A program made the translations under genes and the position numbers. Below, piece by piece: positions 79 through 11,239 of a stretch of DNA of 11,239 bases. The DNA comes from Candidatus Latescibacterota bacterium (lineage in GTDB: Bacteria > JAAXHH01 > JABIQT01), in the NCBI GenBank assembly GCA_018667995.1, contig JABIQT010000545.1, positions 1-11,239 of the forward strand, given 5' to 3'. Below the pieces are notes generated by a model. That model had not been told where the DNA came from, did not search any database, and worked only from the letters and a program-made list of their open reading frames with translations. Numbering within the stretch: the first letter of the stretch is position 1; every line of letters starts with the position of its first letter.

Positions 79-1275
79 CTATACCACAGCTCCACAGAAG
101 GATGAAGAATTCGGTGACCGATAGCAGACGTTCAATTCAGGAGTTGCCAGCCGTTGATGCCCATTGAGACGCGAGTCGAGGCACCTATCGAGGATGCCGC
201 TGGTGAGTAGTGTCCGCTCCGCAGGCCAAGGCGCACGGCCTGTGGTGAACATCTCCTCGGCGGCAGCCATGAGACAGGCCGAGTAGGTCACATTAGGCGC
301 TGGCGGAAGCAGAAACTGTGTGGACCGTACCGCACGAACGCCCCGCAACCGCGCAGCAAAGGTATAGTCCTGCACGGCACCGTCCAGCATCAGTAGTGTG
401 GCCCGCAGCCCGTCGTTGTACTCGATAAGATAGGCCGCTGGATTCTCCGCCAACGCTTCCAGTTCGCCATTGTGGACCAGGTCCTGAGGCCGGCCGTCAT
501 CCAGGGCGATGCCACCTCGCGAGTCGGAACGGGCCAGGGCCGCTTCAAGAAGGCGTCGCGACCAGCGCTTGTCCTCACCGGCACGCCATACTTCGTCGCC
601 ATCGATCAGCTGCACAGACCGAACGCCGGTTTCTCCACCGGATCGGCGTTCGACCATACACTGCATGGCTTCAAGAGCGTGGAAGTCCATAGCATCCGAA
701 CCTCCCACACCGACCATGAGGGCTTCCTCCATTTCACATTCCAGAGGAAGCTCCAGCGCCGGTAATCGAAAGGTAACCGGCAAGGACGAGCCTGCCAACA
801 GAGGAAAATCCAGTTCCTGTGCCGAGGCCACCATGGTAAGGGCACTATCGAAGCTGTAGGATAGATGTTTGTCGTTGAAGACAGGCACGGCGCATCCGTC
901 CTGACGGAACACCTCGACGATCTGTGAAAAGAACTCGAAACGTGGGTAGAGCTTCTGGCTTTTTTCGTTCACCGGATAGTCGCCGTGCTCCGCAATGAGG
1001 AGTACCGCGTCCACAGCCAACTTGTTCGACCCCATCCGCAAGGCTTCGGCGATGGTGGGATACACGTTGAACCCGTGTTCACGCGCTCTCTGACCGCTCA
1101 GATCGGCCTCGGGACGTTGATCCACGTAGGCAGAGACGATGTCCATTTCCGGTCGATGCCAGTGGCCATTTCTCGGATATCCGCTGAAGAAGCGCTCGCT
1201 CATATGATTGGCGTGGCTGCGCCAGTCCCAGAAGGTCGTTATGATCGCCAGTTTTTTGCGAGCCGGTTGCATCAT
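79..1275 (-). CDS. Uncharacterised protein, paralogue A of an overlapping pair
   Basis: This 398-residue protein has no function I can name. It is a clear paralogue of the gene immediately upstream (1275-2492). Shared blocks, in order, are YPTIAEAL (72-79), VDxVLxIxEHGDYP (88-101), LYPRxEFF (109-116), VPVFNDKHLS (130-139), AGSSxPV (161-167), VGVGG (188-192), FHALE (198-202) and ERRxGGETGV (209-218). The conserved His, Asp, Asn, Lys and Glu residues suggest a catalytic or metal site. The alternating strands of the first half suggest a Rossmann-like core, but that is inference. There is no signal peptide, so it is probably cytoplasmic. The start is ATG ATG with GGAGG five to eight bases upstream. 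The start overlaps the stop of the upstream gene as TAATG, which implies translational coupling. I recall similar unannotated proteins in planctomycete-like and poribacterial genomes. Confidence 0.85.
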   Translation of the reverse strand: MMQPARKKLAIITTFWDWRSHANHMSERFFSGYPRNGHWHRPEMDIVSAYVDQRPEADLSGQRAREHGFNVYPTIAEALRMGSNKLAVDAVLLIAEHGDYPVNEKSQKLYPRFEFFSQIVEVFRQDGCAVPVFNDKHLSYSFDSALTMVASAQELDFPLLAGSSLPVTFRLPALELPLECEMEEALMVGVGGSDAMDFHALEAMQCMVERRSGGETGVRSVQLIDGDEVWRAGEDKRWSRRLLEAALARSDSRGGIALDDGRPQDLVHNGELEALAENPAAYLIEYNDGLRATLLMLDGAVQDYTFAARLRGVRAVRSTQFLLPPAPNVTYSACLMAAAEEMFTTGRAPWPAERTLLTSGILDRCLDSRLNGHQRLATPELNVCYRSPNSSSFCGAVV

Positions 1276-2492
1276 TACGTCCTCCGGAAGGTCGACTTAT
1301 CGTCGATCTGATAGGTTACATCCAGGTGTGGTGTTTGTAGTACGATACCGCCCTGATGCAGAGATTCGACACCGGCGATACTCAACCCCGTAGTCAGCAG
1401 ATTTCGATCGATGGGGTAGGGCGCAGAACCCGTTTCCATTAAGGCTTCGATGTGTTGGCACAGGGGATTAAAGAAGTTGGGTTGCATTTCATGGCCTGAG
1501 CCCAGATAGTACAGCAACGACAACGGTTCGGATTGCCCTTTGATCCGGGCCGCGACGGTAATATCACGGACGAGGCCGTTCAGCAGCAGCATGGTCGCGC
1601 GGAGTCCGTCGGTGTATTGGATTCGGTAGGCCACCGGCGGTTTCTCGACCAGATTGGGCAACTCCTCTCTCGTGGGAAAGGTGTGTCGGCGGCTCTCGTC
1701 GGCTGGCTTGAGCGTGTGGCTGCGACACAGACATGCTTCAAGCAACGACGGATCCCAGGCGCCGTCATCCAAAGCCTGCCAGACGCTGTCGCCCCGCAAA
1801 GCCTCAACGGACGCCACACCTGTCTCACCTCCGGCACGACGCTCCGCCAGACATTGGATTCCTTCAAGAGCGTGGAAGTCATAAGTGTCGATTCCACCCA
1901 CACCCACACTTACGATCTCTTCAATTTCTGAGCCGAACGGTACGTCAATTGACGGTACCCGCCAGCAGACAGGGATGGAGGATCCCGCCATAAACGGAAA
2001 GCCGAGTTCACGGCTGGTCTGCACCATTTCATGGGCCCATGACCAATTCCACGAGAGGTGCTTATCGTTGAATACCGGTACACTATTTCCGCTGTTTCGG
2101 AACACCTCCATCGCTTCCTGGAAGAACTCATAGCGGGGGTATAACATCTGGCCCCGTTCGTTCAGTGGATAGTCTCCGTGTTCGCCAATGATCAGGACAC
2201 CATCGACACTCAACTGATCGCCTCCAAGTGTCAGCGCCTCGGCGATAGTCGGGTAGATCGTCAAACCGGGATACCTTGACGCGCGTTCGCGACTGAGGTC
2301 GTTCTCCGGAAACTGATCCACATACAGTGAAACGACATCTATGGCCGGGTAATGCCATTGGTCCTCCCAACCGTAGCCGCCCATGAGCCGATCGACAATA
2401 TTCTGTCCGTGGGAATACCTGCGGTATTCGGAAACAAGCGCCGCGAGACGAGGGCGCTGATCGGGTGACGCGGGTGTTGAATGACTCATCAT
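1275..2492 (-). CDS. Uncharacterised protein, paralogue B of an overlapping pair
   Basis: This is a 405-residue paralogue of the next gene. It carries the same blocks: IYPTIAEAL (79-87), VDGVLIIGEHGDYP (96-109), LYPRYEFF (117-124), VPVFNDKHLS (138-147), then AGSSIPV, VGVGG, FHALEG and ERRAGGETGV. An ATG at 2546 is also in frame but has no ribosome binding site. I chose the ATG at 2492 because GAGGA (2506-2502) lies nine bases upstream and because this start matches the N-terminus of the paralogue. The residues between the two ATGs share nothing with the sister protein. There is no signal peptide or membrane segment. The gene ends in TAA, which shares its last base with the ATG of the following gene. 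The function is unknown; an oxidoreductase-like or isomerase-like sugar enzyme is possible but unproven. Confidence 0.85.
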   Translation of the reverse strand: MMSHSTPASPDQRPRLAALVSEYRRYSHGQNIVDRLMGGYGWEDQWHYPAIDVVSLYVDQFPENDLSRERASRYPGLTIYPTIAEALTLGGDQLSVDGVLIIGEHGDYPLNERGQMLYPRYEFFQEAMEVFRNSGNSVPVFNDKHLSWNWSWAHEMVQTSRELGFPFMAGSSIPVCWRVPSIDVPFGSEIEEIVSVGVGGIDTYDFHALEGIQCLAERRAGGETGVASVEALRGDSVWQALDDGAWDPSLLEACLCRSHTLKPADESRRHTFPTREELPNLVEKPPVAYRIQYTDGLRATMLLLNGLVRDITVAARIKGQSEPLSLLYYLGSGHEMQPNFFNPLCQHIEALMETGSAPYPIDRNLLTTGLSIAGVESLHQGGIVLQTPHLDVTYQIDDKSTFRRT

Positions 2493-2501
2493 TTCTTTTC
2501 G

Positions 2502-2506
2502 TCCTC
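2502..2506 (-). promoter_or_regulatory. Ribosome binding site GAGGA deciding the start of paralogue B
   Basis: The minus strand reads GAGGA followed by nine bases and then ATG ATG at 2492-2487. The alternative in-frame ATG at 2546 has no purine-rich sequence at a suitable distance. This supports the shorter protein. Confidence 0.6.
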
Positions 2507-3463: not shown

Positions 3464-4079
3464 GACTTCATGTGGCTGTAAAAGAGAGAAGAGAATCCCG
3501 TCTTAGGGTAGAAACTGGTGGCTTCGAGGCTGCGTATCCCCAATCTCCGGTTGCTAATATCCGAAAGAGGTACCGATCGGCACCTCAAACTGCCCCAGCC
3601 TGTATAAGTCTGCAGCCTGCAGCATACGGTAGAGATGTATCCCAGGCCAGATATCAAACAGGTCTGTACCGGCCGCATGATCTGATGGGCGCTTAGAGGA
3701 GCCCAAAAGGTAGCGATTGCATTTCCCGGTGTCAAGATTGAGCATCCGTCACGGGCACGGGAAATCGGATTCAATCACACGCAAAAGACGGGCTGCGATG
3801 TGGCGATCGCTCAGGTTTGCTGTGGTCGCTACCCATGCAGCCTATCCATCGCCCGTCCTCACACCTTTATCTGCGGTACTCTCAGTGGAAGAGCGGCTGT
3901 ATGCCTGTCAATCATTGTTGATCTTTGTACAGGTTCAGGGCCTCCAAATCGCAACTTCTGAGGTCCTGATCGACGCATCCTCTCACCCGATTTCGTTTGG
4001 AGTTCATTCACACAGTAGGCTTCTTATAGGATCAGGTTTGATCTGCTTCACGATTCTGAAGTCCCCGGAGGCTGGCATC
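3464..4079. other. Non-coding stretch between two divergent genes
   Basis: This 616-base stretch separates the divergently transcribed hydrolase and the plus-strand secreted-protein gene, so promoters for both should lie here, but no convincing -35/-10 pair stands out. Frames that are open on either strand give low-complexity or unremarkable translations without binding sites. A 63-codon minus frame (3554-3745) looks somewhat protein-like but has no ribosome binding site and no recognisable motif. The frame of the plus-strand gene stays open through 3717-4079, but that translation looks non-coding. The stretch could be decayed sequence left by a lost gene. Confidence 0.5.
4067..4071 (+). promoter_or_regulatory. 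Ribosome binding site GGAGG fixing the start at 4080
   Basis: GGAGG is followed by eight bases and ATG at 4080-4082. The protein then begins directly with a signal peptide, whereas the longer frame from 3717 would bury that signal inside the protein. Confidence 0.75.
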
Positions 4080-5132
4080 ATGTTCGTCAGAGTAACAATG
4101 TGTGTCCTGGTCCTCTGCTTCGGCAGAGGAGCCCAGTTGTATGCACAAGACCGAACCCTCCCCGGCGACCTTTACGGTTTTCTTGAGGACTATGTCGAGC
4201 TTTCGTCCCGCCAGATTGCCGCAGTGCGAGCGGGCAAGGCAGTCACCATACTGCCAGATACCGAAGTAGCCTATGAGGTGGCCACGTTTGGTATCGTACG
4301 CGTCAATGTACCGAAACAGACATTTATTGACCGCGTGTCGCTGCACGATATGACCGTTCAGCATTCCCTGTCGATAGAGAAAGGCATCATCAGCGATCCA
4401 CCTCAGATAGACGATTTTGACAGCCTGAGTGTCGATGAGGGCGATATAGAAACGCTGCAAGGAAGCCAAGCTGGTGACAGTGCTATCAAACTCTCTGAGG
4501 AGTCTATATCCCGTGTACACAGGCAATTACTCAGGACTCCGGACGACGCGGGCCATTCTCTGGCGAATACCTACCGATCCATACTGATGGATTATGCGGG
4601 CTTATACCGTAACGGCGGCAGTCCGACTATGATGGTGTATGTGGATAAGGACGAGTCGCTGAACATGGAGCAGGAATTCAAACACCTGGAGCGGGAGGCG
4701 TCATTTCTGGCGGACTACTACCCCAAGTTTCACGACTATCTCAGAGATGCTACCCCAGACAGCGCGTTACAGATAGCGGATGAAATTCTGTGGGCCAAAG
4801 ATGATTTCGGCACCAAGCGTACCGTGATCAGCCTGACACACGTGTTCACGTATCGTCCGGCTACTCCAATACTCTCCGATTACCTGGTCGTGTCAAAACG
4901 TTTGTACGGCAGTCACTATGTGGAAGCATCGATGGGGATCACCGCTCTCGTGGATGATCCTGACGGTGATTCAAATCACTTTTACCTGGTACATATGAAC
5001 CGGGTACGCATAGATGGGCTGCGAAGGCGATTGTTCCGTTTCTTTACAAAGGGACGCATAACAGACGGTTGGGTGAAACGGCTGGAAACTGAGCTGCTGC
5101 ATGTGAAAACGGATGCTGAGGCAGCCAATTGA
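4080..5132 (+). CDS. Secreted protein of unknown function
   Basis: The 350-residue protein starts with a short signal peptide: Arg4, then a hydrophobic stretch MCVLVLCFG (7-15), and a likely cleavage after LYA (20-22) before QD. The mature part is soluble-looking, mixed alpha/beta, and rich in acidic residues, with no membrane segment. It includes a GKAVTILPDT block near residue 50, an EVATFGIVRVNVP block, a cluster DDFDSLSVDEGDIETL in the middle, and a late strand pair SKRLYGSHYVEASMGI with HMNRVRIDGLR. I recall unannotated secreted proteins of similar length and block order in proteobacterial and acidobacterial genomes, but I know no function. It is the only plus-strand gene. It ends 40 bases from the convergent stop of the glycosidase-like gene, so it is transcribed alone and probably unrelated to the neighbouring catabolic genes. 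Confidence 0.8.
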   Translation: MFVRVTMCVLVLCFGRGAQLYAQDRTLPGDLYGFLEDYVELSSRQIAAVRAGKAVTILPDTEVAYEVATFGIVRVNVPKQTFIDRVSLHDMTVQHSLSIEKGIISDPPQIDDFDSLSVDEGDIETLQGSQAGDSAIKLSEESISRVHRQLLRTPDDAGHSLANTYRSILMDYAGLYRNGGSPTMMVYVDKDESLNMEQEFKHLEREASFLADYYPKFHDYLRDATPDSALQIADEILWAKDDFGTKRTVISLTHVFTYRPATPILSDYLVVSKRLYGSHYVEASMGITALVDDPDGDSNHFYLVHMNRVRIDGLRRRLFRFFTKGRITDGWVKRLETELLHVKTDAEAAN

Positions 5133-7971: not shown

Positions 7972-9465
7972 TCACTCGAACTCTTCCACCCATTTCCTAT
8001 GGTAGGCGTTCTGAACTGGGAAGCTGTTTGCAGGGAATTTTGCGCATTTGCTTCGGTGGTGCTCTTCTGTCTCACCGGGGTTTACAAATACTTCGGAATC
8101 GGTTCGGGCTTCGGTAAACACCTTCTCAATCATCTGGACCGTGTCTGGATGACTGCCGGCAACGTCTTGTGCTTCGGACGAATCGGTCTCCAGGTTGTAC
8201 AGCTCCGTCTCATCGTCCGGGTGTGGACGAAATCCCTTCCAACTGCCCATGCGGACGGCTTGCTGGTGCCCCTGCTCGAAATACAGGTAGTCGTGTTGAG
8301 GTTGTTTTTCACCAGTGAGTGTGGGCAAGAATGATATCCCATCCGTCTCGACCGATGCACTGATCCCTCCAATGTCGGCCAGGGTGGGGAGCAAGTCCCA
8401 GAAGGCGATGACTTGATTGGATATGGTTCCGCTGGTTTTGCCCGGCCAGCTTACAATGAATGGTACTCGGATCCCGGCCTCACCGTCCAGCGAAAATTTA
8501 CTGCCGCGAAAGGGCCCTTTGTGGTCAAAGAACGGGACCTCCTCTGTTCTATCGACCCCGAAGTATCCCCAGGCGCTGTAGCCGTTGTCGCTGGCGAACA
8601 TGATGATGGTGTTATCGTCGATCTGTAGAGACTCCAACAGTTCAACGATTCTACCGATTCCCGTGTCCATTCGCGTAATGATTGCGCCCCACTCCTTATG
8701 TCGTTGGCTGGGCCAATCGGCATCTGTGTAGGGCTCCAGGCTGGGTACAATCAGGGGGCCATGAGGATTCTGATAGGCCAGATATAGAAAGAAAGGATCC
8801 TCGGCGCTATCTTTGATAAATTGGAGGGCTTCCTGCTCGCAGAGATCATAGGTGTTCTGCACCTTGCTCGGATCGGCAACTCCTTTGGCAATAAGCCTGC
8901 CCTGCTCATCGTACGTGTTCTTGTCCGGATTGTCGCTGTCAAAGCGGCGGGAATTGCTGCGATAGAGGCCATCCATATCGAAACCGATGTTCCCTGACAG
9001 CACCACCGGATTCTCATTTCGCCACACGTAGTCCGGGTAGAAGGAATGGGCGCGGATCTGGTCGTAAAATCCAAACGCGTGATCAAATCCCTTTTTATAG
9101 GGCACCCCTTCCGTACCCGGTAATCCCACAGCCCACTTGCCGATCGCCGCAGTCTTATAGCCCGCTTCTTGCATGACATCGCCGAGCGTTTTATCCTCAG
9201 GAAGCAGGCTATGCTGGTATGAGCCCCCGGGCACCGGTTGGCCGTGTTCTCGTATTCGGGCATGTCCCATGTGTTTTCCCGTTAATAAACTACATCGGCT
9301 CGGTGCGCATATTGACGTACCCGCGTATGCCTGAGCGAAGCGCATGCCTTCCGCTGCCAACCTATCGATGTGAGGTGTCTGGATTTTCTCTTGCCCATAG
9401 CACCCCAGGTCGCAGAGGCTCAGGTCATCCGATAGGATCAGTATGATGTTTGGTTTCTTCTTCAT
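7972..9465 (-). CDS. S1-family sulfatase (arylsulfatase-like), cytoplasmic
   Basis: This 497-residue sulfatase hydrolyses a sulfate ester, probably on a carbohydrate. The N-terminus runs straight into the first strand and metal site, NIILILSDD (Asp13, Asp14), with no signal peptide. The maturation motif CAPSR (53-57) makes Cys53 the residue converted to formylglycine. Other family residues are Lys110 in GKW, His235 in NPHGP, Asp293 and Asn294 in SDNG, Lys316, and a GIRVPFI strand (331-337). The tail has the usual LYNLETDSSEAQDV motif. The His normally following GKW is Ala112 here, a change I recall in a sulfatase subfamily with GKWxLG. The length is normal for the family. The ATG at 9465 has AAGGA eight bases upstream, and the gene sits 16 bases after the FGE-like gene, so the two should be co-transcribed. 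No enzyme able to make formylglycine is evident in the window. Confidence 0.95.
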   Translation of the reverse strand: MKKKPNIILILSDDLSLCDLGCYGQEKIQTPHIDRLAAEGMRFAQAYAGTSICAPSRCSLLTGKHMGHARIREHGQPVPGGSYQHSLLPEDKTLGDVMQEAGYKTAAIGKWAVGLPGTEGVPYKKGFDHAFGFYDQIRAHSFYPDYVWRNENPVVLSGNIGFDMDGLYRSNSRRFDSDNPDKNTYDEQGRLIAKGVADPSKVQNTYDLCEQEALQFIKDSAEDPFFLYLAYQNPHGPLIVPSLEPYTDADWPSQRHKEWGAIITRMDTGIGRIVELLESLQIDDNTIIMFASDNGYSAWGYFGVDRTEEVPFFDHKGPFRGSKFSLDGEAGIRVPFIVSWPGKTSGTISNQVIAFWDLLPTLADIGGISASVETDGISFLPTLTGEKQPQHDYLYFEQGHQQAVRMGSWKGFRPHPDDETELYNLETDSSEAQDVAGSHPDTVQMIEKVFTEARTDSEVFVNPGETEEHHRSKCAKFPANSFPVQNAYHRKWVEEFE

Positions 9466-9481
9466 GGTCTTATTCCTTTTC

Positions 9482-10891
9482 TCAGTTCTTTGCTACCCGG
9501 AAGCCGATGTGATCCCGTTGGCGTTGAGGAAAACTCGATGACCTCGAAGCGCAGCGGATATAGCTCTCACTGGGACTGTAAAAGGAGCCGCCTTTCAAGA
9601 CTCGGTGCGCTCGTGACGTGAGATCCTCACGGCCGTCTTCGGCGTGATAGGGATAGTCTTGCAGGATAGTGCTCGTCCATTCCCATACGTTGCCGGCCAG
9701 ATCCAGCACCCCGTAGGGACTGGCTCCGCACGGGTATTCGTCAACCGGTGTTGTGGAGCGAGATTTACCGTCCTGCCCATAATTTGCACAGGGGGCCTTG
9801 GGCATCTCATTGCCCCAGGGATAGACCGCTCCCATATCCGCGCCAGCGCCTCGCGCTGCCAGCTCCCACTCGGTTTCCGTCAATAGCCGTACGTTAGCCC
9901 ACTGACAGAATTTCTGGGCATTGTCCCATGATACGTTCGTCACGGGATGGTCTTCTATTTCAAGAGCCATTCTTCCGTCGATCCAGTGGCCCGGCGGCTG
10001 TGAATGGGCGGCATGCACAAATGTCTCATACTCGGCATTGGTTACGGGCGTCTGGGCGATAGAAAAGGCGTCCACTGAGACCACGTGGGCCGGATATTCA
10101 TTGGGCAAGGCCAGGTCGTGAAAGTGTCGGGTATCATTGCCCATGAGGAAATCGCCCTCGGGAATGTGGACCCAGTCGAAGGCAACAGGCGTGACCTCAG
10201 ATTCATTCCTTCGGGCTACCCGAAAGCCCAGATATACGTCCGTTGTAGATGGTACAAACGAATGCCGGTCGGCAACGCGAATATCCCGCGCACCGTGGAT
10301 GTAGGAACCGCCGCGGACGATCCGGGCTCCGCCACCTGCATCGCTCTCTCGCCCGTCCTGGGCATCATAGGGATAATCGCCCGCCAGGGACTGTGTCCAC
10401 TCCCAGGCATTTCCGGCCATGTCCAAAACACCATAGGGACTGGCGCCGCAGGGGTATTGCGATATGGGATTGGTCGTGGTCAGGTGGTTTTCGAAATTAC
10501 AGTGTTGCGCGCCTGGGGGCTGGTTTCCCCAGGGCCAGATTCGCGCGTCCGTGCCCCGTGCCGCCTTCTCCCATTCGGCTTCCGTCGGCAGTCGGACACC
10601 CGCCCACTGGCAAAATGCGCGTGCGTCATGCCAGTCGACGTAGGTGACCGGGTGTTCGGCCAGTTCCTCGGGCATGCGGCCATCCAGCCAATGTCCCGGT
10701 GGCTGATGTCCAGATGCGGTGACGAATTCCGCGTACTGTGCATTGGTTACGTGCGTGCGCGCCAGCTGGAACGCATCCACATGAACGCGGTGCAAGGGCG
10801 TTTCATGATCATAGGGCACCACGTCGTCTGCCGGATCGCTCCCCATTCGAAACGAGCCCGAGGGGATAGTTATCCAGGATGGATCGTACAT
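9482..10891 (-). CDS. Tandem double FGE-sulfatase (SUMF1-like) domain protein lacking the catalytic cysteines
   Basis: The 469-residue protein is two FGE/SUMF1-fold domains in a row (about 6-227 and 240-468). Each has the family blocks: IPxGxFxMG at the start, THVTNAQY or TPVTNAEY, HPVTxVxW, FCQWAxVRLxTExEWExAARG, PWGN, CGASPYGVLDxAGNxWEW and GFRVA at the end. True formylglycine-generating enzymes oxidise the sulfatase cysteine with two cysteines in the segment after GGS. Here domain 1 has GGSYIHGARDIRVADR (no Cys), and domain 2 has GGSFYSPSESYIRCASR, with only the structural-position Cys447. So it is unlikely to be a classical maturase despite its position just upstream of a sulfatase. Other uses of this fold include non-haem iron enzymes such as EgtB, and binding domains. 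There is no signal peptide. The start is ATG at 10891 with AGGAG nine bases upstream; a longer frame to 11101 is open but looks non-coding. Confidence 0.9.
   Translation of the reverse strand: MYDPSWITIPSGSFRMGSDPADDVVPYDHETPLHRVHVDAFQLARTHVTNAQYAEFVTASGHQPPGHWLDGRMPEELAEHPVTYVDWHDARAFCQWAGVRLPTEAEWEKAARGTDARIWPWGNQPPGAQHCNFENHLTTTNPISQYPCGASPYGVLDMAGNAWEWTQSLAGDYPYDAQDGRESDAGGGARIVRGGSYIHGARDIRVADRHSFVPSTTDVYLGFRVARRNESEVTPVAFDWVHIPEGDFLMGNDTRHFHDLALPNEYPAHVVSVDAFSIAQTPVTNAEYETFVHAAHSQPPGHWIDGRMALEIEDHPVTNVSWDNAQKFCQWANVRLLTETEWELAARGAGADMGAVYPWGNEMPKAPCANYGQDGKSRSTTPVDEYPCGASPYGVLDLAGNVWEWTSTILQDYPYHAEDGREDLTSRAHRVLKGGSFYSPSESYIRCASRSSSFPQRQRDHIGFRVAKN
9491..10876 (-). repeat. Gene-internal tandem duplication of the FGE-like domain
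   Basis: The two halves of the FGE-like gene still resemble each other at the base level, for example TAGGGACTGG at both 9714-9723 and 10434-10443, exactly 720 bases (240 codons) apart. At the N-terminal ends the register differs by 234 codons because of small indels. Protein blocks such as QPPGHWxDGRM (63-73 and 298-308) and CGASPYGVLD (148-157 and 388-397) are nearly identical. This points to an in-gene duplication rather than fusion of distant paralogues. Confidence 0.8.
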
Positions 10892-10900
10892 AGATTGGTT

Positions 10901-10905
10901 CTCCT
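10901..10905 (-). promoter_or_regulatory. Ribosome binding site AGGAG of the FGE-like gene
   Basis: AGGAG is followed by nine bases and ATG at 10891. The first conserved FGE block begins within five residues of this ATG, which supports it over upstream in-frame starts at 11101 and between. Confidence 0.65.
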
Positions 10906-10952
10906 GCGTCTTGATTTGACGAGGGATGTAGTTCGGGTGTGCAGGTTTCCCT

Positions 10953-10981
10953 ATAATGATGCCATGCCTTTTGCAGGTCAG
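10953..10981 (-). promoter_or_regulatory. Possible sigma70-type promoter for the FGE-like/sulfatase operon
   Basis: On the minus strand CTGACC (10981-10976) and CATTAT (10958-10953) are 17 bases apart, each matching the -35 and -10 consensus at four of six positions. This would give a leader of roughly 55 bases before the ATG at 10891. The match is modest and could be chance. Confidence 0.25.
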
Positions 10982-11239
10982 GGAGGCCATTGTTCCCATT
11001 CGGGTAGTCGATTGCTCCCAGCGTACTCTTCTTGCTGAAAACCGCAGTTTTGGTGCGCTGGGCAGGGCGCAGCAAAGATGTCTCCTCGGTACTTGCCACA
11101 TAACTTTTCATCAGAATGGCTGCCGCTGGTGCCCAATTGGTATCAGCGTCTGGCAATGAGTTTCAGTATTCGATTTTCTGCCTGAGCGGTGATGCGTCCG
11201 GGAATATAGCTTGATGCTGATTATCCTTCGCTCAATTCG

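Follow-up and report, generated by a model that had tools for sequence, protein, structure and literature searches.

The question raised by this locus is whether two overlapping genes, encoding related proteins of a family without a name, specify the subunits of a single enzyme, and which kind of enzyme this would be. The genes were found in a stretch of 11,239 nucleotides from Candidatus Latescibacterota bacterium (contig JABIQT010000545.1 of assembly GCA_018667995.1), hereafter called the window, and both occur on the minus strand. Gene A (1275..2492), the first of the pair, encodes a protein of 405 amino acids as counted from the ATG chosen in the initial annotation, the mechanical open reading frame beginning at 2546, and gene B (79..1275) encodes its paralogue of 398 amino acids. 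They are joined by the sequence TAATG (1273..1277, minus strand), in which base 1275 is common to the TAA stop codon of A (1277-1275) and the ATG start codon of B (1275-1273), giving an overlap of one base. A putative ribosome-binding-like GAGG precedes A (2503..2506, minus strand), and a GGAGG of the same putative function (1281..1285, minus strand) is located inside the 3' end of A, five nucleotides before the ATG of B. Because B disposes of such a site of its own, translational coupling between the two genes is possible, albeit not required. A scan for promoters and terminators gave a result no better than that obtained with shuffled sequences. The two proteins share 47% identity over 394 residues (BLASTP, E 2e-121), far beyond chance, and the stretches YPTIAEAL, EHGDYP, LYPRxEFF, VPVFNDKHLS, FHALE and ERRxGGETGV, listed in the initial annotation as common to A and B, are all present in both; the open reading frames, the sequence and the BLASTP comparison thus bear out the overlapping paralogous pair that it had described.

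Searches of family libraries leave this pair without a name. Scans of A and B against Pfam and NCBIfam yielded no significant match, those to DUF2849 (E 0.041) and YeiB (E 0.22) being non-significant and taken as chance, and phmmer retrieved no sequence match to A in the PDB, so that none of these sequence searches connected the pair to a characterised family. The Pfam profile of the Gfo/Idh/MocA family, PF01408, matches neither A nor B even at E 1; in the window's own genome (G000, 6 Mb) it matches at 78 places, which represents a strong expansion. A profile built from the family itself gives weak matches in the PDB, the best being Gfo/Idh proteins with an E-value of about 0.1 over the segment containing the conserved Lys, to be considered as a lead only. 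In a plasmid collection the single match, to an open reading frame of an Arthrobacter plasmid (34%), is uninformative. Among titles and abstracts, mostly of papers open without subscription, no publication appears to describe the A/B family. It is a real and well conserved family, unannotated in the libraries searched, whose fold is known by prediction.

The AlphaFold2 models of the single chains, for which 27 relatives of A and B were aligned as input, are confident for both A (pLDDT 87.3, pTM 0.89) and B (pLDDT 89.4, pTM 0.90), and both adopt the two-domain fold of the Gfo/Idh/MocA proteins. Towards Gfo/Idh/MocA structures, Foldseek E-values go down to 1e-12 and VIA Z-scores reach 25.1 for A, with GenD2 (6nor) as the best PDB structural match, and 26.2 for B. 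The matches cover residues 9-395 of A and 3-385 of B, i.e., an N-terminal Rossmann domain and a C-terminal alpha/beta domain containing a large sheet, and nearly all of the top rows among the PDB matches listed for A and B appear to be Gfo/Idh/MocA proteins. An alignment of 152 family members with Gfo/Idh proteins, taken mostly from the genome of the window, reached a probability of 94% in hhalign (P 1.5e-7), as compared with 0.1-0.5% for the control sets of SDR, sulfatase, UxuA/AP-endonuclease-like, lactonase and MR_MLE proteins. The end-to-end fold match and the hhalign homology together identify the family as a remote branch of the Gfo/Idh/MocA fold, and A and B are, according to the models, divergent members of that fold. 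The earlier statement that no function is known for the family accordingly holds at the level of the reaction, but no longer at the level of the fold, which structure and profile comparisons recognise.

Several groups of Gfo/Idh/MocA proteins may be compared with this branch. The aminoglycoside dehydrogenases GenD2 and KanD2 (6nor, 6jw6), which were solved with NAD bound, offer the best structural match (Z 25-26 for GenD2) and are related to A and B at the fold level only. The inositol-dehydrogenase type, represented by BsIolG (3nt2), LcIDH (4mie) and Pl-scyllo-IDH (5yab), shares the two-domain fold from end to end, with Z-scores of 22-26 in the top rows, together with an Asp after strand 2, a Lys at the place of EKP and, by a weaker alignment, a His of the C-terminal domain. 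However, A and B display about 9-17% identity with these enzymes, lack GxGxxG, read NDKH instead of EKP, and are about 60 residues longer with two segments of their own. The fold is also common to the DgpA-type 3-oxo-glycoside oxidoreductases and to NAD-dependent glycosidases (7xre, 8qc5, 8zn9, and 6t2b of GH109).

The conserved and lost residues show how far this branch has departed from its relatives. Trees calculated by FastTree, in which long branches are present, divide the family into groups A, B, C and D, the last two consisting of solo genes. The GxGxxG motif expected after strand 1 is absent, and residues 21-29 of A, according to the profile alignment, correspond to a group consensus T/S-x-Y-x3-S-H-A/G, which contains the invariant His28 (2409..2411, minus strand, as are all codons given below; 97-100% in groups A, B, C and D). 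A search for GxGxx in the first 35 residues gave 39 matches, all of A type, which by eye correspond to a later GYGW segment after helix 1 and not to strand 1. A helix-to-strand insert precedes strand 2, and after strand 4, at the place of the nicotinamide-side loop, occurs a new segment EHGxYPxNxxGQxLYPR, whose Glu104 and His105 (2178..2183) replace the TP..H of Gfo/Idh proteins and are conserved at 100% and 91-100%, respectively, in all groups. Other features are retained. The acidic residue of NAD ribose-binding type at the end of strand 2 (Asp59 in A, Asp52 in B) is kept at 89-100% in every group in the profile alignment. Lys144 of A (2061..2063), with Lys136 of B (868..870) as its counterpart, aligns by profile with the Lys of the EKP motif and is 97-100% conserved, but the motif itself is not kept and reads DKH (NDKH). 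His207 of A (1872..1874), with His199 of B (679..681) as its counterpart, is likewise 97-100% conserved and aligns, at lower confidence, with the His of catalytic type found in the C-terminal domain. The catalytic residues of inositol dehydrogenases are Lys97, Asp172 and His176 (PMC9603128). His207 aligns with His176 of BsIolG in a weak C-terminal alignment (P 2e-4), with no Asp four residues before it and Asp202 five residues before it.

The loss of GxGxxG throughout the branch argues against an ordinary use of NAD(P). A protein in which GxGxxG is incomplete and Asp179 missing has been considered inactive as an inositol dehydrogenase (PMC9603128). It is conceivable, with odds short of even, that A and B form a heteromer that is no longer a dehydrogenase, the cofactor site having been rebuilt as a metal site or a cofactor-free site serving a lyase, hydrolase, isomerase or epimerase reaction on a sugar acid or a glycoside. 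The invariant His28, Glu104 and His105 would be candidates for such a rebuilt site, with Asp143, His207 and Glu210 possibly nearby. The replacement of the glycine-rich loop by T-x-Y-x3-S-H, the insert ahead of strand 2 and the new segment at the nicotinamide-side loop all speak for this conversion; what speaks against it is that the Asp following strand 2 and the Lys of catalytic type are retained.

Whatever the reaction, conservation supports a catalytic role for both copies. Among the 152 family members, the invariant residues of one copy are nearly all invariant in the other as well, and the invariant polar residues recur in A, in B and in the two groups of solo genes (C and D). As had been claimed from the shared motifs, decay is not apparent in either copy, and both look functional; the pattern of His, Asp, Asn and Lys residues from which catalysis had been suggested is in keeping with an enzyme, as judged from the sequences. 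Gal80 is a non-enzymatic protein with the Gfo/Idh fold. It is very unlikely that only one of the two copies is catalytic and that the other plays a regulatory or scaffolding role comparable to that of Gal80, which resembles A and B in fold, since both proteins of the window, like almost all ordinary A and B members, keep Glu104, His105 and Lys144; A and B retain active-site-type residues and display no sign of a regulatory role. In two genomes a possibly non-catalytic partner is tolerated: the A-type gene is followed there, in the position of B (L117:7389-8465 and L110:1274-2452), by a highly divergent relative in which the counterparts of these three residues have been lost.

Indirect support for A and B working together comes from their distribution. 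For all 65 B-type genes with readable upstream DNA (38 genes, without L112, which lies at a contig edge, and 27 additional ones; many of the 38 belong to genomes that are closely related to each other within the order of the window), an A-type gene is located directly upstream on the same strand. The intergenic distances are mostly under 150 bases, with frequent overlaps and a few wider gaps. Groups A and B each contain a subclade of the window type (A1 and B1, to which the window genes belong), and subclades largely match between partners. The distances within A and within B correlate in 24 non-redundant pairs (r 0.93, 0 of 2000 permutations), a correlation also expected from the linked inheritance of any two genes. 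In genome G368, an in-frame fusion of 874 amino acids connects A to B through a Pro-rich linker (L259:2695-5319, minus strand). These observations, namely the 65 of 65 B-type genes preceded by A, the matching subclades and the natural fusion, favour the heteromeric enzyme that the initial annotation had proposed from the gene pair. As to the independent occurrence of the two types, B was never encountered without A in the testable cases, but subclades of A without B occur in about 20 loci (12 in a first set and about nine in a second one, some limited by contig ends). In these lineages A can be functional alone, which counts against the heteromer. The latter point, together with the full invariant set in both copies, which may both be catalytic, and one pair (L114) in which another open reading frame occupies a gap of 876 between A and B, would suit two separate homo-oligomeric enzymes whose substrates, related or successive, belong to one pathway, and which are held together by operon selection only. 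This arrangement is considered unlikely in view of the constant order of the genes, the dependence of B on A and the fusion. Because B never occurs without A, the order is the same and a natural fusion exists, a heteromer is the best reading of the pair, although this does not amount to proof. As separate observations, the genome with the fusion also has a separate A-B pair, and the window's own genome contains on contig C777 a second A-B pair (L002/L003) of the other subclade, in which the B copy consists of two open reading frames; the in-frame TAA reported there points to a broken gene or an assembly error.

With a probability of roughly 60%, A and B together make up a single carbohydrate-active enzyme, a hetero-oligomer whose two subunits have the Gfo/Idh/MocA fold. 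As suggested by the overlap, both chains would be translated from one message with overlapping ends and, we infer, would pair as Gfo/Idh subunits do, via their C-terminal sheets, each active site being formed between the N-terminal and C-terminal domains of its own chain. The retained Lys (A144/B136) and His (A207/B199) would ensure proton transfer on a sugar-type substrate. Positions that are conserved within A and within B but differ between them cluster in part at residues 340-343 of A (FF-P) and 331-334 of B (YSAC), where A has a four-residue insert, in a region adjoining a lower-confidence loop before a late helix of the A model. Either the A-specific NFF-P loop or the B-specific YSAC loop might reach into the site of the neighbouring chain. 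This fold offers a precedent for a residue that binds the substrate of a neighbouring subunit, namely His318 of Pl-scyllo-IDH, which is located in a late loop of its chain (PMC5969746). The ribose-binding-type Asp being kept, the odds are marginally in favour of a dinucleotide still bound, tightly and differently, and the Tat-type leaders found on some members of all four groups are in keeping with a protein that is exported once it has folded with its cofactor. Our guess is that a sugar, a sugar acid or a lactone is oxidised or epimerised via a transient keto form. In contrast to the obligate A-B pair, the reported structures of the inositol-dehydrogenase type are homo-dimers or homo-tetramers (PMC5969746), and in the NAD-dependent DgpA-type systems the heteromer is the cleaving enzyme and not the oxidoreductase.

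The branch is distributed well beyond the window. Every one of the 16 genomes searched within the phylum of the window contains it, as do 51 of the 64 genomes of a second phylum (Gemmatimonadota or Latescibacterota records). Among sampled genomes, it occurs in 21 of 294 from the phylum of a planctomycete genome and in 23 of 201 from the phylum of a record titled Actinomycetota; in these two sampled phyla only six to nine candidates were scored per genome, so that the counts per genome are lower bounds. A broader proposal, which we hold to be rather doubtful, would see here a large unnamed Gfo/Idh/MocA branch, spread over several phyla with up to 20 paralogues per genome, in which the dinucleotide site was converted to another chemistry and an obligate two-gene heteromer evolved. 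With this branch, the repertoire of poorly cultured bacteria would gain a whole series of enzymes that probably act on sugars. The branch also lends itself to a clean test of what happens to an NAD-binding fold once its signature loop is lost, and to a test of heteromer formation within a family whose reported structures are homo-oligomers.

The neighbouring genes of the window pair and of its relatives point to carbohydrate metabolism without naming a substrate. Upstream of the pair, on the same strand, occur genes for an alpha/beta hydrolase, a GH127-like protein, a GDSL lipase-like protein, a CxPxR-type sulfatase and a two-domain FGE-type protein. Near the relatives, genes of 7-bladed lactonases occur in five loci, two of them overlapping by 8 bases, and three of the UxuA/AP_endonuc_2 genes overlap by 4 bases; SDR, sulfatase, Gfo/Idh, MR_MLE and amidohydrolase genes are also found. 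The UxuA/AP_endonuc_2-type neighbours recall the action of DgpA before a sugar-isomerase-like cleaving complex (PMC8563793). However, no gene accompanies all of the pairs in a survey of conserved neighbours, and this neighbourhood, not conserved beyond the pair itself, counts against A and B as subunits of one carbohydrate-active enzyme.

Some minor observations concern other genes of the window and of the relatives. At 7972-11101 (minus strand) of the window, a sulfatase with a CAPSR motif adjoins a protein with two FGE-sulfatase domains, possibly a sulfatase and its maturation factor, and a 471-amino-acid open reading frame without significant family match occupies 3717-5132 on the opposite (plus) strand. 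Four solo D-type genes (L105:211-2652, L096:1-2667, L208:2696-5176 and L094:1441-4110) encode members fused behind a further N-terminal stretch of about 430-500 residues, which on visual inspection resembles a propeller in L105 and L096, with just a weak Reg_prop/SGL match in L105, and a glycosidase in L094, without Pfam match. In four genomes, a gene (L177:1788-2375, L185:1-459, L124:7550-8473 and L121:5801-6394) for a protein of about 200 residues (307 amino acids in L124), for which Pfam gave no match in the two members searched, overlaps or just precedes solo A-type genes. Finally, a 619-residue open reading frame of the Arthrobacter plasmid pHiyo8-1 (L077:11443-13302) matches MFS transporters in its N-terminal part and the A/B family in its C-terminal part, and possibly results from a frameshift joining two genes.
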